Assembly (NCBI RefSeq): GCF_900104925.1
Contig: NZ_LT629735.1
Location: 1,396,291 to 1,460,290 of the forward strand
Direction of reading: 5' to 3'
Length of the DNA stretch: 64,000 nt
DNA from: Opitutus sp. GAS368
GTDB taxonomy: Bacteria; Verrucomicrobiota; Verrucomicrobiia; Opitutales; Opitutaceae
In this document: in pieces, positions 39,476 to 63,793 of the stretch
How the letters are laid out: the number at the start of each line of letters is the position of its first letter
Position numbering within the stretch: position 1 is the first letter of the stretch
Translations under genes and position numbers: made by a program
The notes under the pieces: generated by a model
Databases searched by the model: none
What the model was told of the DNA's origin: nothing
What the model saw: only the letters and a program-made list of their open reading frames with translations

Positions 39476-39655
39476 GGCCCTGACTATTGGCCGGCCGGCT
39501 TGCCTCAATATTAATGTCCGCTGAAATTGTATTCAGGTTCCGCGAGGCCCCGACGCCGCGCCGGCGGAAATTAAAAATTATTCAGGGAAAGTTCATGGCC
39601 ATTTCAGGCGGTCCATGCATACTCATCGACGCTGTGCCCGGGGCACAGCCGCCCC

Positions 39656-40198
39656 TTGCCCCCCCAAGATTCCAGCCAAGCCCGGTGGTTCGCCACCGAA
39701 GTGCAGCCCCATCAGGCCATGCTGCGCGCGTGGCTGCAAAGCCGGTTTCCCCCCGAATGTGACATCGACAACCTCGTGCAGGAAGCCCTGGTGAGGGTTT
39801 GCCAGGCTTGGGCACGCGGCGAAGTGCAGTCCCCGAAGGCGTTTCTTTTTGCCACGGCGCGCAACCTGGCGCTGGACCAGGTGCGCCGCCAGAAGATCGT
39901 GCCCATGATTTCCTTAGTGGAAACCGACACGCAGGCCGTCTTGGAGGAAGGCACCAGCATTCCCGACCTGGTCGCCCACAACCAGGAATTGGAATTCTTG
40001 ACCGAAGTCATCCAGTCATTGCCCGACCGCTGCCGCCAGGTGTTCACCTTGCGGAAGGTCTACGGCATGTCCCAGCAAGACATCGCCACCCAGCTGGGCA
40101 TCTCCGAACACACCGTGTCCGCCCAACTGACGATCGCCTTGCACAAGTGCACGGCCCATTTCGCCCGCCATCGCCGGGAAAGAGGAGGCCGGCCGTGA
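39656..40198 (+). CDS. FecI-type ECF sigma factor
   Basis: Sigma factor of 180 residues of the iron-starvation (FecI) type. Region 2: EVQPHQAMLRAWLQSRFPPE, CDIDNLVQEALVRVCQA, SPKAFLFATARNLALDQVRR. Region 4: VIQSLPDRCRQVFTLRKVYG and MSQQDIATQLGISEHTVSAQ. The start is a TTG at 39656, needed to include the conserved EVQPH segment; the first ATG comes at 39719 and would cut into region 2. The stop overlaps the FecR start in GTGA. In known systems the FecR partner, prompted by a TonB receptor's STN domain, activates this sigma factor, which then transcribes the receptor gene; exactly that receptor lies at 41335. Confidence 0.93.
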   Translation: MPPQDSSQARWFATEVQPHQAMLRAWLQSRFPPECDIDNLVQEALVRVCQAWARGEVQSPKAFLFATARNLALDQVRRQKIVPMISLVETDTQAVLEEGTSIPDLVAHNQELEFLTEVIQSLPDRCRQVFTLRKVYGMSQQDIATQLGISEHTVSAQLTIALHKCTAHFARHRRERGGRP

Positions 40199-41205
40199 AC
40201 GAGCAACCGCCGCAAGACCGGCCCGAATCACCCATCGACCTCGCCGCCGCGGAATGGCTGGTGCGCCGCGACCGCGGATTCACGGCGCAGGAGCAGGATG
40301 AGTTTTTCCAATGGCTGGCCGAGGACCCCCGGCACGGCGAGTGGCTGTCGATTCACGACCGGACCTGGCGCGATTTCAACCTGCTGGCCGAATGGCGGCC
40401 GGAGCACAGCAGTGAACCAAACCCGGATCTCCTGGCGCGCCGCCGCGCCGGCCCTCGCTGGCTCTGGCCGGCCGCCGCGGCGGTGGCCGCCGGCCTGGCC
40501 CTGCTGTTCGCGGTGTGGCGCCCCTGGGCGAAATCCGCCGAGGACTGGACCGCTTTGACCACGGCCACCGCCATCCAGCACCGCGTGCTGGACGATGGCT
40601 CGGAAGTGGAATTGAACCGGGGCGCGGCCATCGAGGTCGAATTCACGCCGGCCGAACGCCGGGTGCACCTGGTGCGGGGCGAAGCCCATTTCGCCGTGGC
40701 GAAAAACCCCCTGCGTCCATTCATTGTCCGCGCCAACGGCGTCGATGTGCGGGCGGTCGGCACCGCCTTCGATGTCCGGCTCGACCCGGAATCGGTCGAG
40801 GTGCTGGTGACCGAGGGCCACGTGCAGGTCCAGTTGCCCGCGGCCTCCGTGCCCGTGCTCGCCGCCGGCCAGCGGACCGTGATCTCCTTTGCCCCGGCCG
40901 CCCCGCCGCCCCGCGTGCTGGACGTCTCCCCGGAGGAAATGGCGCAGCGGCTCGCCTGGCAGCCGCAACTGCTGGATTTCTCGTCCACGGCCCTCGCCAA
41001 GGTGGTGGCCGAATTCAACCGGCGCACCGGGGCCACCCAAGGCATCCGGCTCGTCATCGCCGACCCGGAACTCGAAAGCCTGCCCATCGTGGCCTCAATC
41101 CGCTCGGACAACATCGAAGGCTTTGTCCGGACGCTGGAGCTGACCGGCGACGTGCGGGCCGAGCGCCGCGGCGAACACGAGATCGTGCTGCACAAAGTCC
41201 GGTAG
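40195..41205 (+). CDS. FecR-type transmembrane sigma regulator
   Basis: Anti-sigma/sigma-activating protein of 336 residues. Cytoplasmic N-terminal domain (DLAAAEWLVRRDRGFTAQEQ, DEFFQWLAEDPRHGEWL), one membrane span (about 82-103, LWPAAAAVAAGLALLFAVW), periplasmic FecR domain (about 115-215: HRVLDDGSEVELNRGAAIEV, VRGEAHFAVAKNPLRPFIV, VGTAFDVRLDPESVEVLVTE), and a C-terminal STN-like segment (LDFSSTALAKVVAEFNRRTG). Start is a GTG overlapping the sigma stop (GTGA), preceded by AGAGGAGG. It should relay ligand binding at the STN-containing receptor at 41335 to the sigma factor. Confidence 0.94.
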   Translation: MNEQPPQDRPESPIDLAAAEWLVRRDRGFTAQEQDEFFQWLAEDPRHGEWLSIHDRTWRDFNLLAEWRPEHSSEPNPDLLARRRAGPRWLWPAAAAVAAGLALLFAVWRPWAKSAEDWTALTTATAIQHRVLDDGSEVELNRGAAIEVEFTPAERRVHLVRGEAHFAVAKNPLRPFIVRANGVDVRAVGTAFDVRLDPESVEVLVTEGHVQVQLPAASVPVLAAGQRTVISFAPAAPPPRVLDVSPEEMAQRLAWQPQLLDFSSTALAKVVAEFNRRTGATQGIRLVIADPELESLPIVASIRSDNIEGFVRTLELTGDVRAERRGEHEIVLHKVR

Positions 41206-41230
41206 GAGCCAGGCGGCGGACGAGGCGGAC

Positions 41231-41249
41231 AAAATGCACCCCGCATTTT
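41231..41249 (+). terminator. possible weak terminator after fecR-like gene
   Basis: AAAATGC-ACCCC-GCATTTT (41231-41249) forms a 7-bp hairpin followed by CTTC. The stem is short and AT-rich, so it may only reduce read-through into the receptor gene. Confidence 0.3.
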
Positions 41250-41334
41250 CTTCACGAACGTCCTCGCCCACGGGGGACGGTTCTTGCCTAATCTCCTCCG
41301 GGAAACGTGTTGGGTGACTCCGCCGCCTCTCGCC

Positions 41335-43905
41335 ATGCATCAATTCATACCCCATGCCGCGGTTACCTGCCGTGGTTTGTGTTGGTTGGCCGCACTTTGG
41401 TGGACAGTTCTGCCGGCCCTGCTGCCCGCGGCCATGGTCACCGCCTCCCAAGGCGCCACCAGGGTCTTCGACGTCCCCGCCGGGGACGCCATCAGCACGC
41501 TGAAGCGCGCGGCGCAGCAGGCCGGCATGGAAATCGTGTTCCCGGCCAAGCTCGTGCGCGGGGTGAAAACCAATGCGGTCAAGGGTGATTTCACCCCGGA
41601 AGCGGCGTTCGATCTCCTGACCGCCAACACGGCGCTTACCGTGGTGTGGGACAAACAATCCGGCGCCCTCATCGTGCAACGGCAACCCGCCTCCCCGGCC
41701 GCGCCGGTCGGACCCAAGGCGGCCAAGATCGATGAGGAAAGGGTGCTGCATCTCGACACTTTCACGGTCACCACGAGCGTGGGCACCTACCGGGAAGCCA
41801 CCACCACGGCCGGCAGCAAGACCCCGATGAGCACGAAGGACGTCGCCGGCACCGTGCAGGTGCTCAACGCGTCGTTCATCGAGGACAAGCAGGCGCGCTC
41901 CCTGGAGGACCTCTACCCCTATGTCGTCGGCATGACCCGGGAAAGCCCGGCCGCCTCCGGCTTCACGCTGCGCGGCTTCAGCAACAATTTCACCAATACG
42001 ATGATCAACAACATCCAGTTCGACGGCCTGCCGGGCGGGGCGTCCCGCTTCGGCTCACCCCCGACCGCCAATGTCGACCGGGTGGAGGTGCTCAAGGGCC
42101 CGAGCTCCGTGATCAACGGCGTCATGGACCCCGGCGGCATCATCAACATCATCAGCAAGCAGCCGTCGGTGAAGCCGGGCAGCTCTCTTGTCATCTCGGC
42201 GGCGAGTTTTGCCGGCCAGCACAGCCCACTCGGCCAGGACGTCAGTCTTACCGCCACCCTGGACAGCACGGGGCCGCTCGACGAGGGCCGGCACTGGCTG
42301 TATCGCTTCATCGCGTCCTACGAGGATCTGAACGGATTCCGGCAGTTCGATTTTGGCAAAAATTACTACTTCTATCCCTCCCTGACCTACCGTTTCGACC
42401 CGGACACGGAAGTGACCTTCAAAATCGAGATCGACCGGCAGCGCCGTTATTCCTCCCAGGATTCCTATCTGGCGGCGCCGTTCCTGCTCATCGCCAATGT
42501 GCCGGCGGATCACTCCCTGTCCTACACCGACCGGAACAACGAGGAATACGACAAGGCCGAGACCTACAATCTCGTGTTCCGCCACCGGTTCGACAACCAA
42601 TGGACCCTGAAGCTCAACGTCCGGGACGTGCAACACGGGGACGGTCGCACCCTGGATGAGAGTCACACGCTCAGGAGCGTGCTGCCCGTGGAAGACAGCT
42701 CGATCGTGCAGCGTTACCGCTACTCCATAAACACCCGGCGCTATGCCTACTACGATCTGAATGTTTACGGAACGGTCGGGCCGGAGACATTCCAGCACAC
42801 GCTGCTGTTCGGTCTCAGTGCCGGTTATGAAACCCACGAGTTCCACCGCCTGTTCTCCGTGGATCTTCCCGGCGCGATCAATGTTTACCATCCGGTGCAA
42901 AACGTCCGGCCGCAGCCTTACGAGCTGGGCGTGGTGGACCTGACCAACAACCAGCCGCAGGACGCCGTCTCCCACTATTACAACTACGGCGCCTACGTGT
43001 CGGACCAGATGAAGATCGGGCAACACTGGCGGGCCTCGGCCGGCCTCCGCCACGAGTCCTACGACACGAGGTATTACGACTCCGCCTTCATCAAGCGGAC
43101 GACCACGGTCGTGAACCCCGGGCAAACCAACAAGCCCAAGGCCACCGTGCCTTCGGTCGGCTTGGTTTACCAACCCGACGATACGACATCGTTCTACGCC
43201 AGCTACGGCCAGGGATTCAAGCCGACGCCCCCCCAATCCGCCCCGCTCCCCACTCCCACGCACCCGGCGGCCGCCACCCTGCCCTCGGAAAAGGCCGGAC
43301 AGGTTGAGGTTGGCGCCAAGCTCGACTTTCTTGCCAACACGCTCGACGTCCTGCTGTCCGTCTACGACATCAAGCGGGATGGGGTCACCCAGGCGATACC
43401 GCTCTCGTTCGATCCCGTCACCAACGCTCCGCTTTTCCGCCAGACCGCGCAGGAGAGCAAGGGCGTCGAACTGTCCGTGAACTACCAGCCCCGGCCCTAT
43501 TGCCAGATGCAGCTGGGCTACAGTTTCGATGACGCGAAGATCACCGGATCGTCGGATCCGGCAACCTTGGGCGCCCGGGTGCCGAACGCCCCCCGCCATA
43601 GCGCCAACTTTTGGGGCCGCTACAATGTGCCGCAGGGCGCCCTGCGCGGTTTTGGCGTGGGCCTCGGCCTGATCTTCACGGGCGACCGGCCCGGCCTGCT
43701 CAGCAACATTCCCGCGCAGAGCATGCAGATTCCGTCCAATTTCCGCCTGGATCTGGCCTTCTACTACAAGTGGAAGCGCGGGGATCTCGGCCTGAATATC
43801 ACCAACCTCCTGGACAAGTCCTACATCGCCAGTGCGGACACCGAACTCGATGTGGTGCCGGGAGCGCCCCGCAAGATCACCGTGTCAGCGCGCTACGCCT
43901 TCTAG
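41335..43905 (+). CDS. TonB-dependent transducer-type receptor with STN domain (856 aa)
   Basis: Siderophore-receptor-like protein that also signals. After the signal peptide (about 1-40, ending PAAMVTAS) comes an STN (secretin/TonB N-terminal) domain (about 41-115: FDVPAGDAISTLKRAAQQAG, MEIVFPAKLVRGVKTNAVKG), then TonB-box-like LDTFTVTTS, plug (SLEDLYPYVVGMTRESPAAS, VEVLKGPSSVINGVMDPGGI) and a barrel ending in SARYAF. The STN domain with FecI/FecR-like genes directly upstream makes this a cell-surface signalling receptor that likely induces its own locus. Start at ATG 41335 (MHQFIPHAAV); an in-frame TTG at 41284 is possible. It is paralogous to the receptor at 44025, which lacks the STN domain. 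Ligand not determinable; iron chelates are the usual guess. Confidence 0.94.
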   Translation: MHQFIPHAAVTCRGLCWLAALWWTVLPALLPAAMVTASQGATRVFDVPAGDAISTLKRAAQQAGMEIVFPAKLVRGVKTNAVKGDFTPEAAFDLLTANTALTVVWDKQSGALIVQRQPASPAAPVGPKAAKIDEERVLHLDTFTVTTSVGTYREATTTAGSKTPMSTKDVAGTVQVLNASFIEDKQARSLEDLYPYVVGMTRESPAASGFTLRGFSNNFTNTMINNIQFDGLPGGASRFGSPPTANVDRVEVLKGPSSVINGVMDPGGIINIISKQPSVKPGSSLVISAASFAGQHSPLGQDVSLTATLDSTGPLDEGRHWLYRFIASYEDLNGFRQFDFGKNYYFYPSLTYRFDPDTEVTFKIEIDRQRRYSSQDSYLAAPFLLIANVPADHSLSYTDRNNEEYDKAETYNLVFRHRFDNQWTLKLNVRDVQHGDGRTLDESHTLRSVLPVEDSSIVQRYRYSINTRRYAYYDLNVYGTVGPETFQHTLLFGLSAGYETHEFHRLFSVDLPGAINVYHPVQNVRPQPYELGVVDLTNNQPQDAVSHYYNYGAYVSDQMKIGQHWRASAGLRHESYDTRYYDSAFIKRTTTVVNPGQTNKPKATVPSVGLVYQPDDTTSFYASYGQGFKPTPPQSAPLPTPTHPAAATLPSEKAGQVEVGAKLDFLANTLDVLLSVYDIKRDGVTQAIPLSFDPVTNAPLFRQTAQESKGVELSVNYQPRPYCQMQLGYSFDDAKITGSSDPATLGARVPNAPRHSANFWGRYNVPQGALRGFGVGLGLIFTGDRPGLLSNIPAQSMQIPSNFRLDLAFYYKWKRGDLGLNITNLLDKSYIASADTELDVVPGAPRKITVSARYAF

Positions 43906-44024
43906 CGCCCGCTTGCGCCATGCAGGTCGGGCCGCCTGCCGGCCGGGGGGTGCGATTTGGGCAAAGAAAACCTTAGTGTGTTGCCGGGGCGAGATCGTCT
44001 CAGGCAGGAACCCCACCACCCTGC

Positions 44025-46295
44025 ATGAACCAAACCACCCCACTTGCCACGGCTTCGGGCCGTGTTTTCAGCCGGCTCGCGCTGCTTTCACTCGGTCTGC
44101 TGACCTGCCGCCTCACTGCCTTCGCGGCCGACCCCACGCCCTCGGCCGAGCCGGAAAACACGGTGACCCTCGACACTTACAAGGTCACGACGGCCATCGA
44201 CACCTACAAGGAGGACCGCAGCATGTCGTCGAGCAAGATGCCCATCGACATGAAGGACCTGGCGGCCACGCTCCAGGTGCTCAACACCTCGTTCATCAAC
44301 GACAAGGTGGCGACGGCCCTGGACGACCTCTACCCCTACATCGTCGGCATGACGCGCGAGGGCCCCGCCGCCGCCGGTTTCACGCTGCGCGGTTACACCA
44401 ACAGCGCGACGAACACGATGATCAACAACCTGCAGACGGACGGCCTGCCGGGCGGCGCGTCCCGCTTCGGTTCGCCCACCACCGCCAACGTCGACCGGGT
44501 CGAGGTGCTCAAGGGACCCAACTCCGTCCTCTACGGCGCGATGAACCCGGGCGGCCTCATCAACATCGTCACCAAGCAGCCGGCGGTGAAGACCAGCCAC
44601 AGCCTGTCCACTTCCGTGGGCAGCTTCGCCGGAAGCCAGGGCACGAACAGCATGGGTTACTCGGCCTCGCTCGACAGCACGGGGCCGCTCGATGCCGGCA
44701 AGCACTGGCTGTATCGTTTCATCGCCTCGTATGAGGACGCCCCCACGTGGCGCCAGTTCGACTGGTCCAAGAATTACTACATCTTCCCCTCCCTTACCTA
44801 CCGGTTCGACGAGAACACCGAGGCGACCCTCAAGCTCGAGTTCCACCGCGAGCACCGCTTCGCGATCCAGGACCAGGCGCTGGTGGCGCCCCTCAACCTG
44901 GCGGCCAACGTGCCGACCGATCATTCCCTGGTCTACCAGGATCCGGAGAACAAGTCCTACGAGCTCGGCGACGTCTACAATCTCTCGTTCGTCCACCACT
45001 TCCAGAACCAATGGACGCTGAAGTTCAATTCCCGCGACGTGCAGCACACCGACGGCCGCCGGCTCCTGGAGAACCGGAGCATCAACGTCACCACCCCCCT
45101 CGACGCCAGCACGATCACGCAGCGGCTGCGCGACACTTGGAACCGCCGGCGCTACACCTATCTCGACCTCAATCTCTACGGCACTTTCGGCCCCGAGACC
45201 TTCAAGCAGACCCTCCTGTTCGGCCTGAACAGCGGCTATGAGACGCACAACTTCACCCGCTGGATCTTCCAGAACACCATCGGCGCCCCCATCAGCGTCT
45301 ACCACCCGGTCCACAACCTGACGACCTACCCGACCGTCAATTCGACCACGGGCACCGGACCGACCCAGATCGCCATCTCGAAATATTACAACCTTGGCGC
45401 CTATGTTTCGGACCAGATCTCCATGGGCAAGCACTGGCGCGCGAACGTCGGCGTGCACACCGAAAAGTACGACACCAAATACACGGACTCGGCGGTCCTC
45501 CTCTCGACCGGCAACGTGGTCAATCCCGGCCAGGCCAACCACCCCAAGTCCACGGTGCCCTCCTTCGGCCTGGTTTATGAGGTGAACGACACGCTGTCGT
45601 TCTACGCGAGCTTCGCCAAGTCGTTCAAGCCGACCCCGCCGCAGGGCGTCGCCCAAGGCGCCCCGCAGCCCGGACCGGAGACCGCGAACCAGAAGGAAAT
45701 CGGCATGAAGGCCGATTTCATGGAGCGCAAGCTCGGCGTCCTCCTGTCCCTCTATGATATCACCCGCGAGAACGTCATCGAGCCCGTCCCGAACGTGTTC
45801 GATCCGGTCACCGGCATCCAGGTTTACCGGACGCTCGCGAGTCAGAGCAAGGGCGTGGAACTGTCGCTCAACTACCAGCCGGTGCCGAACTGGCAGAATC
45901 AGGTCGGCATCAGCTACAACGACGCGAAGGTCACCCAGTCCGCCGCCACCAACCTGATCGACGCCCAGCTGGCCAACGCGCCCAAGCAGAGCGCGAATTT
46001 CTGGACACGCTATAACTTCACCTCGGGTTCCCTGCGCGGCTTCGGCGTGGGTTTCGGCATCATCTACACGGGCCAGCAGAATCTGGTCCTCGACAACCGC
46101 GACACGGCCAAACTCACCATCCCATCCGTCACCCGCGCCGACCTGGCCCTCTACTACAAGTGGCACCGGTATGACTTCGCCGTGAACATCTACAACATCA
46201 CCGACAAGTCCTATATCGCCGGCGGCGATGCCCCGACCGACGTGGTGCCCGGCTCCCCGCGCAAGATCACCGCTTCGGTGCGCTTTCCGTTCTGA
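44025..46295 (+). CDS. TonB-dependent receptor, paralog of the 41335 receptor without STN (756 aa)
   Basis: Receptor with signal peptide (about 1-35, ending TAFAAD), TonB-box-like LDTYKVTTA, plug (DDLYPYIVGMTREGPAAAGF, VEVLKGPNSVLYGAMNPGGL) and barrel ending SVRFPF. It aligns end to end with the receptor at 41335 from the TonB box onward (shared RYRYS- or RLRDT-type segments, KHWLYRFIASYED or RHWLYRFIASYED, KGVELSLNYQP or KGVELSVNYQP, PGSPRKIT or PGAPRKIT) but has no STN domain. It thus looks like a transport-only duplicate of the signalling receptor, perhaps under the same sigma factor. The intergenic 119 bases show no strong terminator. A hairpin at 46358-46384 may end its transcript. Confidence 0.93.
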   Translation: MNQTTPLATASGRVFSRLALLSLGLLTCRLTAFAADPTPSAEPENTVTLDTYKVTTAIDTYKEDRSMSSSKMPIDMKDLAATLQVLNTSFINDKVATALDDLYPYIVGMTREGPAAAGFTLRGYTNSATNTMINNLQTDGLPGGASRFGSPTTANVDRVEVLKGPNSVLYGAMNPGGLINIVTKQPAVKTSHSLSTSVGSFAGSQGTNSMGYSASLDSTGPLDAGKHWLYRFIASYEDAPTWRQFDWSKNYYIFPSLTYRFDENTEATLKLEFHREHRFAIQDQALVAPLNLAANVPTDHSLVYQDPENKSYELGDVYNLSFVHHFQNQWTLKFNSRDVQHTDGRRLLENRSINVTTPLDASTITQRLRDTWNRRRYTYLDLNLYGTFGPETFKQTLLFGLNSGYETHNFTRWIFQNTIGAPISVYHPVHNLTTYPTVNSTTGTGPTQIAISKYYNLGAYVSDQISMGKHWRANVGVHTEKYDTKYTDSAVLLSTGNVVNPGQANHPKSTVPSFGLVYEVNDTLSFYASFAKSFKPTPPQGVAQGAPQPGPETANQKEIGMKADFMERKLGVLLSLYDITRENVIEPVPNVFDPVTGIQVYRTLASQSKGVELSLNYQPVPNWQNQVGISYNDAKVTQSAATNLIDAQLANAPKQSANFWTRYNFTSGSLRGFGVGFGIIYTGQQNLVLDNRDTAKLTIPSVTRADLALYYKWHRYDFAVNIYNITDKSYIAGGDAPTDVVPGSPRKITASVRFPF

Positions 46296-46357
46296 TCCGG
46301 CCCCGGAATCCGCCCCGCATGGCCAGTCTGGTCCCCGGCGGGGCGGGCCCTCACTTC

Positions 46358-46384
46358 GCGGGGCAGGACGATGTCCCGCCCCGC
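46358..46384 (+). terminator. probable terminator after the 756-aa receptor
   Basis: A 12-bp stem (GCGGGGCAGGAC, 46358-46369; GTCCCGCCCCGC, 46373-46384) with one A-C mismatch and a 3-nt loop is followed by TGTTGTT. It is 63 bases past the receptor stop. Confidence 0.5.
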
Positions 46385-46461
46385 TGTTGTTCGGCCCTGG
46401 CGGGCCCGGCAGGGCGGGCCGCCCGGGCCCTGCTCCGGGCCGGACAAACCGGAATCTTCCC

Positions 46462-47271
46462 ATGCCTGCTGTTGATTTTTCACCGAACCTTGCACGCTTC
46501 ACCGGCTTTGCCGACCTCTACAACCGCCACCGCGCCTCGCCCCCGGCGGTGCTGGCGGAACTGCTGGCCCGGTTTTCGGGGATGTCCCGGCCCGCGCTCG
46601 TGATCGATCTGGGTTGCGGCACAGGCCTCTCCACCCGTTACTGGGCAGACCACGCGGAACGCGTCACCGGTATCGAACCCACGCCCGATATGATCCGGCA
46701 GGCCGCGACGGTCACGCGAGCGCGCAACGTGTCCTATCACGCGGGCTACTCCCATGCCACCGGCCTGCGGGCCCGATGCGCGCAAATCGCCTGCTGCATG
46801 CAAGCCCTGCACTGGATGGAACCGACGGCCACCTTTGCCGAGGTGAACCGGATTCTGGTGCGCGGCGGGGTCTTTGCGGCCTGCGACTATGACTGGCCGC
46901 CCGCCACCGGCTCGTGGGAGGCGGACGCCGCTTTCGAATCGTGCTGGCGCACTGCGCGCGAGCTTGGCCGGGAACTCCAGGTCGAGGCCGGACTCCAACG
47001 GTGGGACAAGGCCGGCCATCTGGCGCGCATGGAGGCCAGCGGCTGTTTCCGCTACGTGAAGGAAATCGCCGTGCATCACATCGACCGGGGCAATGCGGAC
47101 CGGCTCACCGGTCTGCTCCTCAGCCAGGGCTTCGTGCAGAGCCTCCTGAAAAAGGGCGTCACGGAAGCCGCCCTCGGCATCCCCGCCCTGCGCCAGATCG
47201 CCGGGCAAAACCTGGGGGAGGCCCCGCGCCCCTTCCTTTGGAGCGCGCGGGTGCGGGTGGGCGTGACTTAG
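46462..47271 (+). CDS. class I SAM-dependent methyltransferase, paralog of the one at 52710
   Basis: Rossmann-fold methyltransferase of 269 residues. SAM-binding motif I is LVIDLGCGTGLSTRYWADHA, the acidic post-I motif is GIEPTPDMIRQA, and motif IV/V appears as CMQALHWMEPTATFAEVNRI. Shared opening with the second copy: NLARFTGFADLYNRHRASPP here and NIGRFTGFADRYDRHRAGPP there. Methyltransferase_11-type proteins with 'RFTGFADRYDRHR' openings act on small molecules, but the substrate is unknown. Start at ATG 46462 (MPAVDFSPN); the longer in-frame frame begins inside the previous receptor gene. The two paralogs bracket the two-component pair and the PstS-like genes. Modification of a transported chelator or ligand would fit but is not shown. 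Confidence 0.88.
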   Translation: MPAVDFSPNLARFTGFADLYNRHRASPPAVLAELLARFSGMSRPALVIDLGCGTGLSTRYWADHAERVTGIEPTPDMIRQAATVTRARNVSYHAGYSHATGLRARCAQIACCMQALHWMEPTATFAEVNRILVRGGVFAACDYDWPPATGSWEADAAFESCWRTARELGRELQVEAGLQRWDKAGHLARMEASGCFRYVKEIAVHHIDRGNADRLTGLLLSQGFVQSLLKKGVTEAALGIPALRQIAGQNLGEAPRPFLWSARVRVGVT

Positions 47272-47358
47272 CCGGCCGAGGCTTAAATCGGTAATTTGCT
47301 CTGGCGCCCGGACCCTCCCGTGGCCCATCTTCCGGGTAGGTTCCCCACCCCCAGCCCC

Positions 47359-48024
47359 ATGAAAATCCTCGTGGTCGAAGACCAGAAGCGCCTTGGCCAG
47401 TTTCTCAAGAAAGGCCTGTCCGAGCACAGCTACACCACCACCTGGGCGCAAAACTGCGCCGAGGCCCGGGACGCCCTGTGCGAAACACACTACGACGGCA
47501 TCATCCTTGACCTCGGCTTGCCCGACGGCGACGGGCTCGATCTGCTGCGCGAATGGCGCCAGAGCGGCTTCAACGAGCCGGTGCTGATCCTGAGCGCCCG
47601 CGACACGGTCCAGGACCGCATCCGCGGGCTGGACCTCGGCGCCGACGACTACCTGCCCAAGCCTTTCAGTCTGGAGGAGCTGCTCGCCCGCGTCCGCTCC
47701 CTGCTGCGGCGCCAGGCGACGACCAAGGAAACCGTGCTCGAACACCGCGGCATCCGGGTCGACCTGCTGGCCCGCACCGTCACGCAGAACGGCACGTCTG
47801 TGGAGATGACCACGCGGGAGTTCGCCCTGCTCGAGGTCTTCCTGCAGAACGCCGGCCGCGTGCTGCCCCGCACCCTCATCTGTGAGAAAATCTGGGAGTC
47901 GCACTATGACGTCGATACCAACCTGCTCGACGTCTACATGAGCAAGCTGCGCACCAAGCTCGAGGCCGACCCCGCCAAGCCGCTCTTCAAGACCGTGCGC
48001 GGCGTCGGCTACCAGCTGACATGA
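47359..48024 (+). CDS. OmpR/CusR-family response regulator
   Basis: Regulator of 221 residues. Receiver domain with D51 as phosphoacceptor (IILDLGLPDGDG), acidic E7-D8 in VVEDQ, and K101 in DDYLPKPF. C-terminal winged helix-turn-helix: VEMTTREFALLEVFLQNAGR, VLPRTLICEKIW, VDVYMSKLRTKLEADP-like end with KTVRGVGYQL. Closest in style to CusR/CopR-type regulators that answer metals. Start: ATG at 47359. The stop overlaps the kinase start (ATGA), so the two are translationally coupled. It follows the methyltransferase and precedes the kinase and PstS-like genes, which are the obvious targets. Confidence 0.95.
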   Translation: MKILVVEDQKRLGQFLKKGLSEHSYTTTWAQNCAEARDALCETHYDGIILDLGLPDGDGLDLLREWRQSGFNEPVLILSARDTVQDRIRGLDLGADDYLPKPFSLEELLARVRSLLRRQATTKETVLEHRGIRVDLLARTVTQNGTSVEMTTREFALLEVFLQNAGRVLPRTLICEKIWESHYDVDTNLLDVYMSKLRTKLEADPAKPLFKTVRGVGYQLT

Positions 48025-49487
48025 AGTCGGTCGGTGTCCGCCTGGCCTTCTGGTATGCGCTGGCCTCGGTGCTGACCCTGGCGCTGCTGTTCCGCGCCGG
48101 CCGCTACCTGCTGGAACAACACGTCATCCGCAGCCTCGACCTCCTCAACGCCACCCAGTTCGAGCAGGTCAAGGAGCACTTCGGCCCCGATCCCGGCGCC
48201 CTCACCCCCGCCGAGATCCGCGAGCGCATGCGTGATGGCAATGAGCCGGCCTACGCCCGCTTCTACATCGAACTCCACCAACCCGGCGATGGGGCCGTCT
48301 ACAGTTCGCGCAATCTCGGCCGCCGCAGCATTCCCCGCGTCGCTTTCAAGCCGGATTTTTCCGCCAATTTCTTCGCCGCCGTCTTCAGCTACCGCAATTC
48401 CGACTCCCGCCTGGTGCCCGCCAAACGCACCTTCAACGTGATGCTGGACGACCTCGGCGAGCTCCGCGTGGGCGAGTTTGCCCTCGGCCCGTTAAGCGTG
48501 CTGATCGCCACCCCCAAGGTGCAGGTCGCGGAGACCATCAAGGGCTACGACGAAATCTCCGGCGTCCTGCTGGTGTTCATGCTGCTGGCCAGCGCCGGCA
48601 TCGGCTACGGGCTGAGCCGCGTGGCGCTGCGCCCCGTGCGCCTGATCCAGGAGACCGCCAACCACATCAGCTCCGACAACCTCAGCGAGCGCATCCCGGT
48701 CGCCCCGGTGGAGGACGAGATTTCCGACCTGGCCCGGCTCCTCAACCAGATGTTCGACCGGCTGGAGTCGTCCTTCAACCAGGTGCGGCGGTTCACCGCG
48801 GAGGCCTCGCATGAACTCAAGACCCCGCTCTCGCTGATGCGCCTCCAGTCCGAGAAGATGCTGATGGACGGCGGTCTCAACCCCGCGCAGGAGGAGTCGC
48901 TCCATATCGTGCTCGAGGAAATCAACCGCCTCAATACGATCATCGAGGAGCTGCTCTTCCTGTCCCGTGCCGAGGCCGACGCCATCACCCTTGATCGCCG
49001 CCCGCAGGACCCGCGGGTCTTCATGGAAAACTTCGCGCAGGACGCCCGGGTGCTCGCCGACAGCCGCGGCGTGCGCCTCGCCGACATCCATGGCGGCGAG
49101 GGCCGGGTGGAATTCGACGCCCGTTGGCTCCGGCAGGTGCTGCTCAACCTGCTGGCCAACGCGCTGAGCTACACGCCCGCGGGCAAATGCGTCACCGTCA
49201 CCTCGCAGCTCGGCACCACCGGCTGGCGCGTGGCGGTGGACGACGAGGGCCCGGGCGTACCCGCCGACCAGCGGGAGCGCATCTTCGAGCGCTTCGTGCG
49301 GCTGGCGCACCCGGCCCAGCACGACAAGGGCAGCGGCCTCGGCCTCGCCATCAGCCGCAGCATCATCACCCTGCACCAAGGCCGCATCTGGGCCGAGGCG
49401 CCGGCCTCCGGCAAGGGCCTCCGGGTGGTCTTCGAGCTCCCCCTGGCCGGGGCGGACGGGGGCCCGGCGATCCCGCGCCCAAACTGA
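48021..49487 (+). CDS. sensor histidine kinase (CusS-like)
   Basis: Kinase of 488 residues with two membrane spans (about 8-25 and 182-204) around a periplasmic sensor domain (about 30-178). A HAMP domain (VALRPVRLIQETANHISSDN) leads to the dimerisation helix with His264 in FTAEASHELKTPLSLMR. Catalytic boxes: N-box LLNLLANALSYTPAG, G1 VDDEGPGVP, F-box RIFERFVRL, G2 KGSGLGLAISRSI. Layout and 'HELKTPL' motif are those of CusS/QseC-type sensors. The ATG overlaps the regulator's stop in ATGA. It is transcribed toward the PstS-like genes, whose products could present a ligand to its periplasmic domain, as some binding proteins do; that link is inference. Confidence 0.95.
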   Translation: MKSVGVRLAFWYALASVLTLALLFRAGRYLLEQHVIRSLDLLNATQFEQVKEHFGPDPGALTPAEIRERMRDGNEPAYARFYIELHQPGDGAVYSSRNLGRRSIPRVAFKPDFSANFFAAVFSYRNSDSRLVPAKRTFNVMLDDLGELRVGEFALGPLSVLIATPKVQVAETIKGYDEISGVLLVFMLLASAGIGYGLSRVALRPVRLIQETANHISSDNLSERIPVAPVEDEISDLARLLNQMFDRLESSFNQVRRFTAEASHELKTPLSLMRLQSEKMLMDGGLNPAQEESLHIVLEEINRLNTIIEELLFLSRAEADAITLDRRPQDPRVFMENFAQDARVLADSRGVRLADIHGGEGRVEFDARWLRQVLLNLLANALSYTPAGKCVTVTSQLGTTGWRVAVDDEGPGVPADQRERIFERFVRLAHPAQHDKGSGLGLAISRSIITLHQGRIWAEAPASGKGLRVVFELPLAGADGGPAIPRPN

Positions 49488-49590
49488 ATTTTTGTTAGGA
49501 GAGGATTAACCTTCGATTAAGGCGCCTCGCCGATACTGCCGTGTGTGGGCCTCGCGCCCGCCTTCCCCAACCCCGGACCCCTACCCGCCC

Positions 49591-50694
49591 ATGCCCACCC
49601 CGCTGCGTTTCGCCACCTGTTTCACCCTGCTCGCGTGCGCCCTTGCCCCGCTTTCCGGCCGAACCCTGCCCCAGCCGCCCACCCCGGCCGAGCAAAACCT
49701 CTGGAAACAGCAGGGCCGCACGCTGCCCGTGCCCGAGGCGCAGCAACCCACCCTCGACCCCGCCCTGCCCGCCTACGTGCCGCGGCGCGACATCGAACTG
49801 AGCGGCCACTTCAAGGGCGCCGCCTCCGACGTGCTCGCGCTGCTGACCAAGCAGTGGATCGCCGCCTTCCAGAAATACTACCCCAAGGTCGTCCTCGACG
49901 TGCCACCGCCCTACGCCGGCAGCCTTGGCGCGCTTGAGCTCATCAAGGGCGACCTGCAGTTTGTCATGGTCTCCCGCGAGCTGAAGCCGACCGACATCTC
50001 GGGCTTCGCGGAAAAGTTCGGCTATCCCCCGTTCAGCGCGCCCATTTCGGGCGGCACTTACCGGCACTTCGGCTTCCTCGACGCCATCGCCTTCTTCGTC
50101 CACCCGGACAATCCGCTCCGGCAGCTCACTTTCGACCAGATCGACGCCCTCTACTCCACCACGCACCACCGCGGGGGCGGCGCCATCACCACCTGGGGCC
50201 AGCTGGGGCTGACCGGCGAGTGGGCGGACAAGCCCGTTCATCTCTGGGGCGTGAAGCCGTGGAACGGCTTTGAGGAATTCATCCGCCAGCGCGCGCTCAG
50301 CGTCGGCGCCAAGCGCGGCGAATGGCGCCCCGACATCCATTTCACCGAGACGGTCTTCCCGATCTCACCGGCCGTGGCCGCCGACCGCTATGCCCTCGGT
50401 TACGCCGGCCTCGCCTACATTGGCGATGACGTGAAGCTGCTCAGCCTCGGAGTAAAAACTGGCGGCCCCGCCGTCGCGCCGGGCATAGAGGAGGTCTACC
50501 AGGCCCGCTATCCGCTCAGCCGGCTGGTCTTTTTCAACACGAACAAACGCCCCGGCCAGCCGCTCGATCCGGTGCTGGAGGAATTCCTCAGGTTCCTGCT
50601 CAGCCGCGAGGGCCAGCAGGTCGTCCTCGACCAAGCCACCTTTGTTCCGCTGCGCGCCGGGCAGGCCGACGCCAGCCGGGCCCTGCTCAAGTGA
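49591..50694 (+). CDS. PstS-like periplasmic binding protein, single domain
   Basis: Exported binding protein of 367 residues with signal peptide (about 1-23, TCFTLLACALAPLSG). The fold is the phosphate/oxyanion PBP type (PBP_like_2): GAASDVLALLTKQWIAAFQK near the N terminus, VMVSRELKPTDI, then the signature ITTWGQLGLTGEWADKP and C-terminal YPLSRLVFFNTNKRPGQP, EFLRFLLSREGQQVV. The same signature occurs in both domains of the next gene and the C-terminal motif in the partial gene at 63821. No PstC/PstA/PstB genes are adjacent, so it does not feed an ABC importer here. ATG at 49591 is set by the signal peptide. Overlaps the next gene by GTGA. Ligand unknown. Confidence 0.85.
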   Translation: MPTPLRFATCFTLLACALAPLSGRTLPQPPTPAEQNLWKQQGRTLPVPEAQQPTLDPALPAYVPRRDIELSGHFKGAASDVLALLTKQWIAAFQKYYPKVVLDVPPPYAGSLGALELIKGDLQFVMVSRELKPTDISGFAEKFGYPPFSAPISGGTYRHFGFLDAIAFFVHPDNPLRQLTFDQIDALYSTTHHRGGGAITTWGQLGLTGEWADKPVHLWGVKPWNGFEEFIRQRALSVGAKRGEWRPDIHFTETVFPISPAVAADRYALGYAGLAYIGDDVKLLSLGVKTGGPAVAPGIEEVYQARYPLSRLVFFNTNKRPGQPLDPVLEEFLRFLLSREGQQVVLDQATFVPLRAGQADASRALLK

Positions 50695-52625
50695 AGCGGA
50701 TTGTCGCGCTGCTGCTGCTGGCCGGCGCGCTCCGTGCCGCGGGCCCGCTCGACCCGGCGCTGCCGGAATATAAACCGGAACAGACGGTTCGCGGCGGGCT
50801 CAACAGCGTCGGTGACGACGCGATCGAGCCGCTCATGAACGCCTGGCTCGCGGCCTTTCAGAAGCACCAGCCCGGCGTCACCCGCGGGGAACGCTGGGCG
50901 CACCCCGGCGGCGCGGCGGCCTTCGGCGCGCTCATGCTGGAGACGACCGACGTGGCCCCGCTCGGCCGCGAACCGTGGCCCGCCGAGCTCGCGCCCTACG
51001 GCCACCAGTTCAAGGGCGACATGATGAAGGAACCGCTGCTCGTCCGCGTGGGCACCGGCGGCTTCACGCCGGCCGGGCAGTCCGGCGCGCTCGCGGTCTA
51101 CGTCAACGCCGCCAATCCGCTGGCGCAACTCTCGCTCGCGCAGCTCGACGCCCTCTTCGGTGCGCAGCGCAAACGCGGCGGCCGCGCCCCGTTGCTCACC
51201 TGGGGCCAGCTCGGCCTGGCTGGCGAGTGGGCCGACCGGCCGGTCGTCGCGGTGGCGATGCCGGACTACTCGACCCTGGCGCTCGTCTTCCAGCATCGCG
51301 TGCTACAGGATGGCCTGTGGACCGCCGGGCTGGAAATCGCGCCCAACCCGGCCGCCGCGCTGCAGAAAGTGGCGGCCACGCCGGGTGCGATCGCCTTCGC
51401 CGGCTTCATGGACGCCCCGGGCACGAAGACCCTCGCGCTCGCCGAAGCCGACCCCGGGCCATTCGTCACCGCGTCCGAGGCGACGGTCGCGAACCACACC
51501 TACCCCCTCACCCGCGATCTCTACCTCGCGGTGAACCAGCGCCCGGGCGCACCGCTGCCGCAGAAGACGAAGGAGTTCCTCGCCTTCGTGCTCAGCCGCG
51601 AGGGCCAGCAGATAGTCGCGGACTACAAATACTTCTTCGCCCTGAACGCCCCCGCCGCCGCGGTGGAGCGCGCCAAGCTCGCCGGTTATCTCGCCCCGGT
51701 CGATCCGGCCATCGCGTCCTACCGCGCGACCGCGCAGGTCAGCGGCCCGATCGCCAACGTCGGCAGCGACGGCATGGAATCGCTCATGGAAAAATGGATG
51801 GCGGCCTTCACCCGGCTCCAGCCCGGCGTGCACCGCGGCGCGCGCTGGTCCCACCAGGGCACGTTGAACGGCTACCAGGCGCTGCTCGCCGGCGAGACCG
51901 ACCTCGCGCCGATGGGCCGCGAACTGTGGCCGGGCGAGAAGGTCATCTACCAGGCCGTGCGCGGCCAGCCCGAGCCGCTCGAGATCCGCGTGGCACGCGG
52001 CGGCTTCAACACCCCGCAGCGCACCACGGCGCAGGCCATCTTTGTGAACGAGCACAACCCGCTCGCCGGCCTGACCGTGCCGCAGATCGACGCGATCTTC
52101 GGCCGCGAGCGCCGGCAGGGCTCGCCCGCGGCCATCACCACCTGGGGCCAGCTCGGCCTCACCGGCGAATGGGCGGACCGGCCGATCACGATTTACGTGC
52201 CCTATCGCATCGCACCCAACTCGATGTCCGTCCAGATTTCCGTGCTCAAGGGCGGCGCCTGGAGTCCCGCCGTGCACGAGGGCTCGATCGCCGAGGTCGC
52301 CGCGGCCGTGGCGCGCGAGCCGGGCGCGATCGCCTTCGGCGGCTTCGAGGAAGGCGGCCCGGGCCTGCGCCCTGTTCCGGTCGCCGCGAAAACGGGCGGC
52401 GCCTTCATCGCCGGCAATGCCGCCGACGTCGCGAGCGGCCGCTATCCGCTCACGCGCTACATGTATATCCGCCTGAACCGCGAGCCGGGCCGGCCGCTGC
52501 CGCCGCAAGTCCGCGAGTTCCTGCGCTTCATCCTCAGCCGCGAGGGCCAGGAGTTCATCCCGACCTCGGCCTATTTCCCGCTCCGCGCCGACGAGGTGGC
52601 GGCAGAGCTGGCGAAACTGGAGTAG
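50691..52625 (+). CDS. tandem double-domain PstS-like binding protein
   Basis: 644 residues: signal peptide (1-17, IVALLLLAGALRAAG) then two complete binding-protein domains (about 25-335 and 345-640). Each starts with a SVGDDAIEPLMNAW- or NVGSDGMESLMEKW-type helix, has APLGREPWP or APMGRELWP in place of the usual SRE motif, carries LTWGQLGLAGEWADRP or ITTWGQLGLTGEWADRP, and ends YPLTRDLYLAVNQRPG or YPLTRYMYIRLNREPG plus FVLSREGQQIV or FILSREGQEFI. A two-domain PstS-like polypeptide is unusual; the phosphate-binding loop (GSGTG-like) reads HPGGAAAFGAL and HQGTLNGYQAL. GTG start overlaps the previous stop (GTGA). Likely co-translated with the single-domain protein. Confidence 0.85.
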   Translation: MKRIVALLLLAGALRAAGPLDPALPEYKPEQTVRGGLNSVGDDAIEPLMNAWLAAFQKHQPGVTRGERWAHPGGAAAFGALMLETTDVAPLGREPWPAELAPYGHQFKGDMMKEPLLVRVGTGGFTPAGQSGALAVYVNAANPLAQLSLAQLDALFGAQRKRGGRAPLLTWGQLGLAGEWADRPVVAVAMPDYSTLALVFQHRVLQDGLWTAGLEIAPNPAAALQKVAATPGAIAFAGFMDAPGTKTLALAEADPGPFVTASEATVANHTYPLTRDLYLAVNQRPGAPLPQKTKEFLAFVLSREGQQIVADYKYFFALNAPAAAVERAKLAGYLAPVDPAIASYRATAQVSGPIANVGSDGMESLMEKWMAAFTRLQPGVHRGARWSHQGTLNGYQALLAGETDLAPMGRELWPGEKVIYQAVRGQPEPLEIRVARGGFNTPQRTTAQAIFVNEHNPLAGLTVPQIDAIFGRERRQGSPAAITTWGQLGLTGEWADRPITIYVPYRIAPNSMSVQISVLKGGAWSPAVHEGSIAEVAAAVAREPGAIAFGGFEEGGPGLRPVPVAAKTGGAFIAGNAADVASGRYPLTRYMYIRLNREPGRPLPPQVREFLRFILSREGQEFIPTSAYFPLRADEVAAELAKLE

Positions 52626-52709
52626 CGGCCGGCGGCGAGTATCACCAGCGCCCTCCGTCTTTGCTCATGTCTCTCCACTCCCATCCCTCAATCCTCAACT
52701 GATCCGTCC

Positions 52710-53522
52710 ATGTCCGATTCCACATCCTTCGCGGGCAACATCGGCCGGTTCACCGGCTTCGCGGACCGGTATGACCGTCATCGCGCGGGTCCGCCCCCGG
52801 CGCTGGCTGACCTGGTCCGGCAATACGCGGGATCCACGACGCCCGGCCTGGTGGTTGACCTCGGCAGCGGCACGGGGCTCTCGACGCGCTATTGGGCCGA
52901 CAAGGCGGCGCGCGTCATCGGGATCGAGCCGACGCCCGACATGCGCCGCCAGGCCGAGAAAGTCACCACGGCCCCGAATGTCTCCTTTCGCGCCGGCTTT
53001 TCCCACGAGACCGGACTGGAAACCGGGAGCGCCGATCTCGTCATCTGCATGCAGGCCTTGCACTGGATGGAACCGGCCGGGACCTTCGCCGAGGCCGGCC
53101 GCCTCCTCCGGCCCGGCGGGATCTTCGTGGTGTGCGACTACGAGTGGCCGCCCACGACCGCATCGTGGGAAGCCGACCAGGCCTTTGACGCCTGCTTCCG
53201 GGCGGGCCGCCGCCTCGAGCAGGCCCGCGGCCTGGTGCACAACCTCCGGCACTGGGACAAATCCGGCCACGCCACCCGGATGCGGGAGAGCGGCCGTTTC
53301 CGTTTCGTGAAGGAATCGGCCGTGCATCACCTCGATCGCTGCAATGCGGAGCGCCATATCGGCCTGCTGCTCTGCCAGGGATTCATCATGGCGCTGCTGC
53401 GCGGCGGCGTCACCGAGGACGAACTGGGCATCACGCAATTCCGCACCGTGACGCAACGCACCCTCGGCGACGAGCCGCGGCCGATGATCTGGAACGCCAC
53501 CGTGCTGCTGGGCGTCGCCTGA
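52710..53522 (+). CDS. class I SAM-dependent methyltransferase, paralog of the one at 46462
   Basis: Protein of 270 residues with SAM motif I LVVDLGSGTGLSTRYWADKA, post-I acidic GIEPTPDMRRQAEKV and CMQALHWMEPAGTFAEAGRL. Identical order of motifs with the copy at 46462, including KSGHATRMRESGRFRFVKES or KAGHLARMEASGCFRYVKEI and the end NLGEAPRP or TLGDEPRP. Motif I here has Ser for Cys. It starts at an ATG 84 bases after the tandem PstS-like gene; no clear terminator lies between, so it may be part of the same transcript. Substrate unknown. The duplication, one copy on either side of the two-component and PstS-like genes, suggests segmental duplication within this cluster. Confidence 0.88.
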   Translation: MSDSTSFAGNIGRFTGFADRYDRHRAGPPPALADLVRQYAGSTTPGLVVDLGSGTGLSTRYWADKAARVIGIEPTPDMRRQAEKVTTAPNVSFRAGFSHETGLETGSADLVICMQALHWMEPAGTFAEAGRLLRPGGIFVVCDYEWPPTTASWEADQAFDACFRAGRRLEQARGLVHNLRHWDKSGHATRMRESGRFRFVKESAVHHLDRCNAERHIGLLLCQGFIMALLRGGVTEDELGITQFRTVTQRTLGDEPRPMIWNATVLLGVA

Positions 53523-59030: not shown

Positions 59031-59038
59031 GACGGAAA

Positions 59039-61950: not shown

Positions 61951-62036
61951 AAGGCGGGAGGGGTAATGCGCGGGGGTATGGGGGTCCGTCGGCGGGGTGA
62001 CTGACCGGAGCCAGCATGCCTGCCGTGGATAAAAGC

Positions 62037-62058
62037 CAGCTGAACTCCAGCTGAATTC
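62037..62058. repeat. tandem direct repeat upstream of the 2HCT gene
   Basis: CAGCTGAACTC (62037-62047) and CAGCTGAATTC (62048-62058) are adjacent 11-base copies differing at one position, followed by a related GTTAAGCTGA. The position, about 90-110 bases upstream of the carrier ATG, would suit a regulator site, but no factor is known. Confidence 0.4.
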
Positions 62059-62061
62059 CTG

Positions 62062-63151: not shown

Positions 63152-63793
63152 TTATTTCAGCCCCAGATCCCGGAACCAGCCGGGCCTCCGCAGGCGGGCC
63201 CAGTTGGTCGTGACGGTGCCCTTCAGCATGGAGGCGAAGGTGCCGGGTTCACCCACGGTCGCCTTGTAGATGTGGATGAGCAGGCTGCCGGACATGATCA
63301 CGCTCACCACCCGGTGGCTGGTACGGCTGACCACATACACCTCCCGCGGCATCCACGGCTCCCGCCGCCACCACCACACCAGGCCGGTGACCAGCAGCCA
63401 GGCGGTGCTGAAGATGAACGCCCAGAAATAAAGTTTCTGGCCGCCGTTGAAAAAGCCCGTGTCGGCGGGCGGCAGTTGATCCGGCCGCAGGGCGTGATCC
63501 TGCAGGTGCCGGATGAAATAGGTGTCCGTCGCCGTCCAGCGCATCCGCTTGCGCCACAGGAAAAAAATCGGGATGGCCGAGACGGCGAGCGCCAGCCCCG
63601 CCACAAAATGGATCGCGATGGTGCTCTGTTCCCCGCCGAAATATGGCACCAGCCAGTGCAGGATGCTGGACCAGTAGAGCGCCAGGCCGGTCGCCATCGC
63701 GAGGATGAAGCCGATTGCGATCAACCAGTGAATGACGCGCACGGAAAGCGTGTGGCGTAGGATCTCGGTCTTGGGGGTCGGTGGATTTTCCAT
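63152..63793 (-). CDS. di-haem b-type cytochrome (cytochrome b561 / FdnI-like)
   Basis: Membrane protein of 213 residues with four spans and paired histidines typical of b-type cytochromes of the formate dehydrogenase gamma/Ni-Fe hydrogenase cytochrome group: HTLSVRVIHWLIAIGFILAM, STIAIHFVAGLALAVSAIPI, WAFIFSTAWLLVTGLVWWW and SHRVVSVIMSGSLLIHIYKA. Those groups pass electrons from quinol or periplasmic partners. Here no dehydrogenase lies beside it; instead a PepSY membrane protein follows at 7 bases and a PstS-like protein precedes at 27 bases. A role in reducing an imported metal or other substrate at the inner membrane is plausible inference. Confidence 0.88.
   Translation of the reverse strand: MENPPTPKTEILRHTLSVRVIHWLIAIGFILAMATGLALYWSSILHWLVPYFGGEQSTIAIHFVAGLALAVSAIPIFFLWRKRMRWTATDTYFIRHLQDHALRPDQLPPADTGFFNGGQKLYFWAFIFSTAWLLVTGLVWWWRREPWMPREVYVVSRTSHRVVSVIMSGSLLIHIYKATVGEPGTFASMLKGTVTTNWARLRRPGWFRDLGLK

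Follow-up and report, generated by a model that had tools for sequence, protein, structure and literature searches.

A candidate carboxylate regulon with permease-less, putatively ligand-diversified PstS-fold binding proteins in Opitutus sp. GAS368

Introduction

Solute-binding proteins (SBPs) are generally presented as working with a permease of their own. We describe a locus of Opitutus sp. GAS368 in which a large family of them, with the fold of the phosphate-binding protein PstS, stands without one. The stretch analysed (64,000 nucleotides, C1:1396291-1460290 of a 4.15-Mb genome in one contig; hereafter the window) carries a cluster of regulatory, receptor and PstS-like genes. This cluster forms the left edge of a roughly 74-kb island that runs from window position 39656 to about 50 kb beyond the window end. 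The reading that we favour, and to which we give about an even chance, is that of a carboxylate, perhaps ferric-carboxylate, regulon, whose PstS-fold proteins would act without a permease and would have diversified in ligand.

Parts of the island resemble described systems. An extracytoplasmic function (ECF) sigma factor, a FecR-like regulator and a TonB-dependent receptor with an N-terminal STN domain adjoin each other in the order of FecIRA, but here there is no adjoining ATP-binding cassette (ABC) importer, there are two receptors, the block is optional within the island, and a TTCAG box lies upstream. The binding proteins are of the same fold and sequence family as that of PstSCAB, yet have no permease or ATPase partner and lack residues of the phosphate site (Arg in 37 of 37 domains, Asp in 35 of 37).

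For the two-component systems CreBC/BlrAB, the cre/blr tag is given as TTCAC-N6-TTCAC in the portion of the source consulted (PMC4689548), a direct repeat akin to the TTCAG-N6-TTCAG-N6-TTCAG of the island. The CreB and CreC models also match here, below their cut-offs (151.6 against 273, and 161.3 against 356), so that the pair does not qualify as a CreBC equivalog; it differs in scoring best against a heavy-metal subfamily, in the three in-phase repeats of the box, and in a putative regulon of carboxylate carriers and SBPs. In Bordetella, as far as the excerpt of the source goes, BctDE exerts two-component control over citrate transport and the SBP BctC also signals (PMC5812351). The island likewise has two-component genes beside SBPs and citrate-type transport, whereas SBP signalling is seen in Bordetella only, the SBPs here are of the PstS fold and not of the TctC type, and the carriers are secondary ones of 2HCT, DctA and CitMHS type rather than TctAB.

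The nearest parallel is the Bug/TctC family, most of whose SBPs have no permease according to the same excerpt (PMC5812351), and whose expansion in Rhodoplanes comprises 434 genes with a largest array of nine in the consulted part of that report (PMC5994714). There too, one SBP family is massively expanded, with few cognate permeases, near other carriers and kinases (PMC5994714, PMC5812351). The island differs in its family (PF12849/PstS fold), in having 29 such genes on one strand of a single island, 17 of them consecutive, against the nine of Rhodoplanes, in the orthologues that most of its paralogues have in other genera, and in a shared box. It does not belong to the TctCBA/Bug transporters: its SBPs are PF12849 proteins, and a search of the genome for TctA (PF01970) gave 0 matches. 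Listings from the open-access literature, including those on Lacunisphaera genomes, show no report of a PstS array.

Results

The PstS-like proteins form an array without a permease. The genome holds 39 PF12849 domains in 37 genes: two in the cluster, 29 past the right end of the window, and four at 3.08 Mb, where sigma factor, FecR and STN receptor genes form a second such locus. Of the other two, one encodes the canonical PstS of a PstSCAB-PhoU set and one a solitary protein at 0.54 Mb. Without these, 35 genes (37 domains) remain, which we call array-type; they belong to the PF12849 sequence family and the PstS fold, and are related to TIGR02136 and to 4omb (E 1e-51). By gene calls, 40 genes follow beyond the window, every one of them on the minus strand, and 29 of these are PstS-like, with at most 17 in direct succession. 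The others include TonB receptors, a sigma factor, FecR, an NMT1-type protein, YncE-like propellers, an FGE-sulfatase-like protein and members of the family of about 165 residues described below. A BPD_transp_1 search of the genome returned nine matches, all outside the island, and thus no ABC importer permease in cluster or island; two of them (C1:365614-367358) adjoin the canonical PstS, where PstSCAB-PhoU is complete.

The original prediction, made from the window sequence, had described the cluster as free of ABC permeases and had proposed that its PstS-like proteins are not importer subunits. The first is confirmed, and the second is supported for importer subunits of the usual kind, since no permease is near, a complete PstSCAB lies elsewhere and the site Arg is lost. 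It had also considered a distant PstCAB lacking its own binding protein; the PstCAB found has its own PstS. With that separate, complete set and the lost site residues, we ruled out phosphate import via ABC partners.

In order to compare ligand sites, the canonical elements SD-T, GSS, SR, Asp, Arg and SGT were sought at 15 positions, taken from presumed PstS contact loops and mapped on 4omb. The canonical PstS keeps 12 of 15, the single PstS-like protein of the cluster (PstS1) keeps 7, and the halves of the tandem protein, which share 42% identity, keep 4 each; the PstS-like proteins of the window thus have no canonical phosphate site. The site Arg is kept in none of the 37 array-type domains, a loss of which we are highly confident from the alignment, and the Asp in two, one of them PstS1. 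The phosphate-like ligand that had been suggested is therefore disfavoured for the array, and less so for PstS1.

A phosphorus role deserves consideration nonetheless: the PstS-like proteins might bind phosphate, its esters, phosphonates or pyrophosphate, scavenged through the Porin_O_P porin that adjoins the cluster. The fold, the relationship to TIGR02136 and 4omb, and the positions kept by PstS1, among them the Asp and the SR pair, speak for it. Given the loss of Arg and Asp, the complete canonical PstSCAB-PhoU set and the fact that the co-regulated carriers are carboxylate carriers, we consider it improbable.

Each paralogue appears to be held separately. Among 165 PstS-like domains from loci of nine relatives, which are partly covered, so that absence of an orthologue means little, reciprocal best matches exist for 33 of the 37 domains (120 pairs, median identity 75%, range 39-91), whereas paralogues within the genome have a median identity of 35% (624 detected pairs). 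Between orthologues (101 pairs, each with 60% identity or more), identity is 90% in the 15 site columns and 76% elsewhere; between paralogues it is 19% in these columns, against 37% elsewhere. When averaged by group, orthologue site columns reach 88%, against 77% elsewhere, and upon shifting the site pattern circularly along the 290 columns of these averages, 0 of 289 shifts attain the observed difference or the orthologue identity, while five attain the low paralogue site identity. The positions that vary among copies while being fixed within each copy therefore lie in the ligand site, a pattern that suggests a ligand of its own for each paralogue.

Could the copies be redundant, none with a function of its own, and have survived in a few genomes by chance? 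The expansion is indeed patchy: nine of 200 Opitutaceae, including the window genome, have at least 14 first-look PF12849 candidates and the others at most eight, and two listed copies in G009 carry internal stops. The gap between paralogue (about 35%) and orthologue identity across genera (about 75%), together with a ligand site that is better conserved than the rest, makes this explanation very hard to credit. By profile search, the eight expanded relatives have 13 to 96 matches each. The upper extreme is G009 itself, a genome of 3.0 Mb in which 96 array-type PstS matches are spread over many contigs (loci L042-L048, L062 and L066); its two interrupted copies have one TAG and one TAA.

The ligand class is suggested by the company of the OmpR-type regulator. 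An orthologue of at least 78% identity (next best 70%) is present in 16 of 252 Opitutaceae, and a 2-hydroxycarboxylate (2HCT) carrier likewise in 16; the two occur together in 13 genomes (Fisher p=1.6e-16), within about 13 kb of each other in 11 and on separate contigs in the other two. The regulator occurs without the carrier in G115, G582 and G600, and the carrier without this regulator in G071, G147 and G569. Three genomes of one genus (G116, G074, G040) combine receptor(s), a PepSY-like protein, 2HCT, a DASS-type carrier (by Pfam in G116, by eye in the other two), kinase and regulator, and have no PstS array. In or beside other islands, Pfam finds CitMHS, SDF (DctA-type) and DASS carriers, and PepSY_TM-like proteins, 38-40% identical to that of the window, recur beside carboxylate carriers. 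A phosphoenolpyruvate carboxykinase (PEPCK) gene lies at most 10 kb from the regulator in the window and in five genomes (G156, G115, G023, G589, G600), as assigned by Pfam for the window and G156 and by eye from N-termini for the other four. This shared regulon points to di- or tricarboxylate ligands, possibly as iron complexes.

The genes of the island also share a putative regulatory box. CTGAA-N6-CTGAA direct repeats occur in 11 of 81 upstream regions (two of which share one divergent region), against at most 4 in 30 mononucleotide shuffles. Read in the sense of the downstream gene, they are TTCAG units that recur every 11 bp, often three times. Within the 130.7-kb locus, nine matches of at least 12/15 lie at seven places (two match twice), where 1.1 were expected and 20 shuffles gave a maximum of 4. 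All nine are intergenic by gene calls, and they precede the sigma gene, the 2HCT gene, the NMT1 gene, a TonB receptor, two small-protein genes and a PstS-like gene; the sigma genes of G582 (L064) and of the 3.09-Mb locus (L025) have similar boxes upstream. A relaxed form of the box has 29 sites, some overlapping, in 845 kb of loci, all 29 intergenic and 28 with a correctly oriented gene within 400 bp (the other lies at a locus end), and its reversed pattern has none; because these loci were chosen for the island, the count is not independent.

Exact and near-exact sites in the whole genome and in the family are more independent evidence. The genome has five exact sites: those of the window sigma gene and the island NMT1 gene, and three off the island, of which one stands 38 bp before a DctA-type carrier, beside another sigma-FecR-receptor set (C1:2058546), and one about 155 bp before an orphan SBP_bac_3 gene. 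One of two one-mismatch sites precedes the 3.09-Mb sigma gene. Across the family, 26 exact sites were counted: the 16 regulator genomes hold 19 of them and the other 236 the remaining seven, each in a different genome; the reversed control has five in 252 genomes. Off-locus sites in regulator genomes stand before PstS-like genes (G162, G564) and a YncE-like gene (G025). By eye, a site in G023 lies between PEPCK and the regulator, in the PEPCK sense, and one in G073 before a CitMHS-type gene. The seven sites outside the regulator set lie in G037, G054, G146, G032, G167, G008 and G038, of which the first two were read in context; no regulon-type gene was seen around the G054 site. That the box is shared is a conclusion we hold with high confidence on the strength of these patterns. 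The sigma-FecR-STN receptor set with its boxed DctA-type carrier spans L067:100-6376 (C1:2053599-2059875), and has no PstS there.

The conservation of the cluster is partial. The close relatives of the genome are metagenome-assembled genomes that carry the names Opitutus sp. GL140_5, Lacunisphaera sp. U-2020 and Opitutaceae ACE_VER3; for relatives, which are partially covered, a simple gene finder and BLAST against the proteins of this genome supplied the gene starts and most gene names. All ten genes named in the original prediction are present in the order given and on the plus strand, by gene calls and Pfam. A second genome (L052) has the same gene order from sigma factor to tandem PstS, and the tandem PstS was found in five (G000, L052/G582, G156, G115, G187), in all of which single and tandem PstS adjoin the regulator-kinase pair, with two genes between in G187. 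The cluster is therefore more than a chance assembly, and its core neighbours do not vary at random. Across genera this core consists of regulator-kinase, PstS and tandem PstS, then a carboxylate carrier and/or PepSY/cytochrome b561, and the array.

The set does not hold up as one fixed system, however. The block of sigma factor, FecR, receptor pair and methyltransferase 1 between porin and regulator is found in two of the five tandem-PstS genomes (G000 and G582/L052, of the same genus) and is absent at that place in G156, G187 and G115, which rules out a fixed receptor pair; BLAST shows the same porin neighbourhood in these three, and G187 has a different FecR-receptor set beyond the far side of its porin. 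Methyltransferase 1 (E 1e-30 or better) occurs in 5 of 200 Opitutaceae, in three of them (G005, G023, G162) in unrelated surroundings, which rules it out as a core part; methyltransferase 2 does not follow the tandem PstS in L052, L053 or L054. Judged by these comparisons, the receptor pair and the methyltransferases are variable passengers. As to a role as trans-aconitate methyltransferase, matches were weak and below cut-off.

The vicinity of PstS proteins and kinase raises the question whether the former mainly present ligands to the latter, as citrate-bound BctC does to BctE, instead of serving as carriers. Single and tandem PstS lie near the regulator-kinase pair in all five tandem-PstS genomes, and BctC is a precedent in the excerpt consulted (PMC5812351). 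Set against this are the ratio of one kinase to 35 array-type genes, kinase and regulator without any array in three genomes, a PstS1 relative in G564 on a different contig from the regulator, and the finding, in the portion consulted, that an SBP gene next to a kinase gene does not always encode its partner (PMC11113362). We consider it quite improbable as the main function, while a part for PstS-like proteins as ligand sensors of the kinase is possible. The N-terminal, sensor part of the kinase (window 48021-48755) is only 52% identical to that in L052, the nearest relative (L052:8278-9009), with regulators at 99%, which suggests fast change or a swap of the sensor.

The features of the window are collected in Table 1. 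The first receptor scores 27.7 bits for STN, slightly under the Pfam cut-off of 28.4. The two receptors are paralogues of 56% identity, and the two methyltransferases share 58%; several start codons in the cluster are uncertain.

Table 1. Features of the island and its surroundings within the window.
Feature	Window position	Strand	Basis or remark
Phosphoenolpyruvate carboxykinase (GTP)	36132..37952	-	Pfam PEPCK_GTP/PEPCK_N
Porin_O_P outer-membrane porin, divergent from cluster	38282..39475	-	Pfam Porin_O_P 8e-32
Putative regulatory box CTGAA-N6-ATGAA-N6-CTGAA (+ strand: TTCAG repeats)	39581..39607	-	Upstream of sigma gene and divergent porin
FecI-like ECF sigma factor	39656..40198	+	Pfam Sigma70_r2/r4
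FecR-like anti-sigma regulator	40195..41205	+	Pfam FecR 7e-17, DUF4880
TonB-dependent receptor with STN	~41338..43905	+	Pfam; TIGR01783 siderophore receptor above cut-off
Second TonB-dependent receptor, without STN match	44025..46295	+	Pfam; TIGR01783 above cut-off
Class I S-adenosylmethionine (SAM) methyltransferase 1	~46456..47271	+	Pfam Methyltransf_11
OmpR-type response regulator, module marker	47359..48024	+	Pfam
Sensor histidine kinase, periplasmic PDC/PAS-like sensor domain	48021..49487	+	
Single PstS-fold solute-binding protein (PstS1)	49591..50694	+	7/15 phosphate-site positions kept, Arg lost
Tandem two-domain PstS-fold protein	50691..52625	+	Two PF12849 stretches; 4/15 site positions per half
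Class I SAM methyltransferase 2	52710..53522	+	Pfam
2-hydroxycarboxylate (citrate/malate-type) transporter, 2HCT family	60577..61950	-	Pfam 2HCT 6e-143
Putative regulatory box, two overlapping registers	62029..62066	+	Upstream of 2HCT gene
PepSY_TM membrane protein	62062..63078	-	Pfam PepSY_TM 1.8e-44
Cytochrome b561-type membrane protein	63152..63793	-	Pfam Ni_hydr_CYTB
Start of 29-gene PstS-like array	63821..64000	-	Runs past window end to C1:1508779

The PepSY_TM protein is presumably of a putative ferric reductase type. Between the two halves of the island lies an RND pump set (ACR_tran, HlyD, OEP; window 54796-60370), with relatives in L052 (part of the RND gene 90% identical) and L032 (OEP 77%). 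The array itself holds an NMT1/THI5-type binding domain fused to a PstS-fold domain (L022:3284-5485) and a PstS-fold domain behind an unassigned N-terminal region of about 240 residues (L022:15208-16971), both with relatives in other genera. A family of about 165 residues with signal-peptide-like N-termini and an invariant His, Asp and Arg recurs in PstS islands (L021:5358-5849, L023:7174-7686, L023:15865-16395, L025:11747-12250 and relatives), several members standing behind a box; for 16 members Pfam matches were weak and below cut-off, and there was no significant PDB match. Genes of the RraA-like aldolase family flank islands or lie inside them (L023:16556-17035, L032:6539-6964). Some RraA-like proteins decarboxylate oxaloacetate, which would suit carboxylate use. 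A lanthanide/methanol-dehydrogenase link, with YncE-like propeller, TonB receptor and SBP as its elements, was dropped, as no such enzyme is among the island proteins scanned, which cover part of the genes.

Discussion

In this study, gene content, Arg loss, site divergence with orthologue conservation, the link between regulator and 2HCT carrier, and the shared box are read from sequence. Binding of the regulator to the box, the ligand class, the hand-over to secondary carriers and the iron step are what we infer. The island would capture citrate, malate, C4-dicarboxylates and probably the iron complexes of these organic acids, all of which would cross the outer membrane via TonB receptors and porin. 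Different anions may then be held or concentrated by a periplasmic library of PstS-fold proteins, in which every pocket would have been rebuilt separately and which has no ABC permease. Free acids would enter by shared secondary carriers: the 2HCT protein, a DctA-type carrier elsewhere in the genome, and CitMHS, DASS and SDF carriers in relatives. PepSY/cytochrome b561 proteins perhaps reduce the bound iron. For control, the kinase would drive the OmpR-type regulator, which would bind TTCAG-N6-TTCAG-N6-TTCAG and switch on sigma/FecR, receptors, binding proteins and carriers, as well as PEPCK in some relatives; FecIR would add receptor-ligand feedback, with the two-component system placed above it. 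We are not aware of a direct precedent for secondary carriers that receive their substrate from PstS-fold proteins; the nearest case is the Bug/TctC family.

Several observations weigh against this mechanism. For kinase and regulator, the highest scores, though short of the cut-offs, go to heavy-metal (Cop/Cus/Czc) families (TIGR01387, 230.3 against a cut-off of 279.2; TIGR01386, 217.6 against 292.55). The kinase sensor domain had no significant match by sequence search; its model, built from four sequences at low confidence (predicted local distance difference test 71), gave a middling fold comparison in which the closest of the separate domains is the CusS sensor. The choice of site columns depends on the PstS contact loops assumed. 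PstS1 keeps seven of 15 positions, the Asp included, and a paralogue at 3.08 Mb nine, so that phosphate-like anions may still be the ligands of some members. Discovery of the box was based in part on loci that were later scored, and exact boxes occur in only 8 of the 16 regulator genomes. Neither PEPCK nor PstS1 of the window has a box in the scan of the locus; the PEPCK site in G116 is in the opposite orientation (by eye), and boxes also precede a porin and a CitMHS-type gene (by eye) in G037, a genome that has no close orthologue of the regulator. The exact site at C1:2553370 lies at a coding start and is probably due to chance, while the one-mismatch site at C1:1172053 has no adjoining regulon-type gene.

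The first of these observations bear on a reading of the island as mainly a ferric-siderophore or other metal-complex system. In that case the ligands of the PstS-fold proteins would be metal complexes or chelators released from them, the kinase would be a metal sensor akin to CusS, and the carboxylate carriers would do no more than return chelator for reuse. FecI/FecR and STN receptors are present, both window receptors exceed the TIGR01783 siderophore-receptor cut-off, PepSY_TM-like proteins recur beside carboxylate carriers, and the modelled sensor would fit. However, the heavy-metal scores are below cut-off, the DctA-type, CitMHS-type and 2HCT carriers of the regulon and the adjoining PEPCK suit carbon use, and the reductase role of PepSY proteins is a presumed one. 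We therefore regard an island devoted mainly to metal as rather unlikely, and keep to the carboxylate regulon, with iron as a possible part of it.

Whether island genes have passed between genera is a further question. The regulator of G156, from another genus, is 90% identical to that of the window and that of G187, from the same genus, 82%, with InfB at 71% and 85% identity to the window genome, respectively. In 6 of 16 PstS groups, the highest identity to another genus falls no more than 1 below that within the genus. These comparisons are suggestive only of transfer. Of 387 genomes sampled from the phylum, each with up to five scored candidates, only the window genome exceeded 400 bits (next 299); as the other expanded genomes were not in the sample, it is a weak test of spread beyond the family. 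The full proposal, in which one carboxylate-responsive regulator and its box control receptors, carriers and an old, individually conserved set of some 30 retargeted PstS-fold proteins, which work with shared non-ABC carriers in place of a permease for each and belong to a block passed between genera, is put forward tentatively, as somewhat less than an even bet.

The genome has 35 array-type PstS-like genes beside its canonical PstS, against nine BPD-type permease matches in all, and the role of orphan binding proteins becomes testable in one compact, co-regulated locus. The box and the marker regulator provide a means of finding the rest of the regulon. For the Opitutaceae, the label "phosphate-binding protein PstS" on these proteins may mislead on ligand, and the presence of orthologues in other genera suggests that selection holds each pocket separately.

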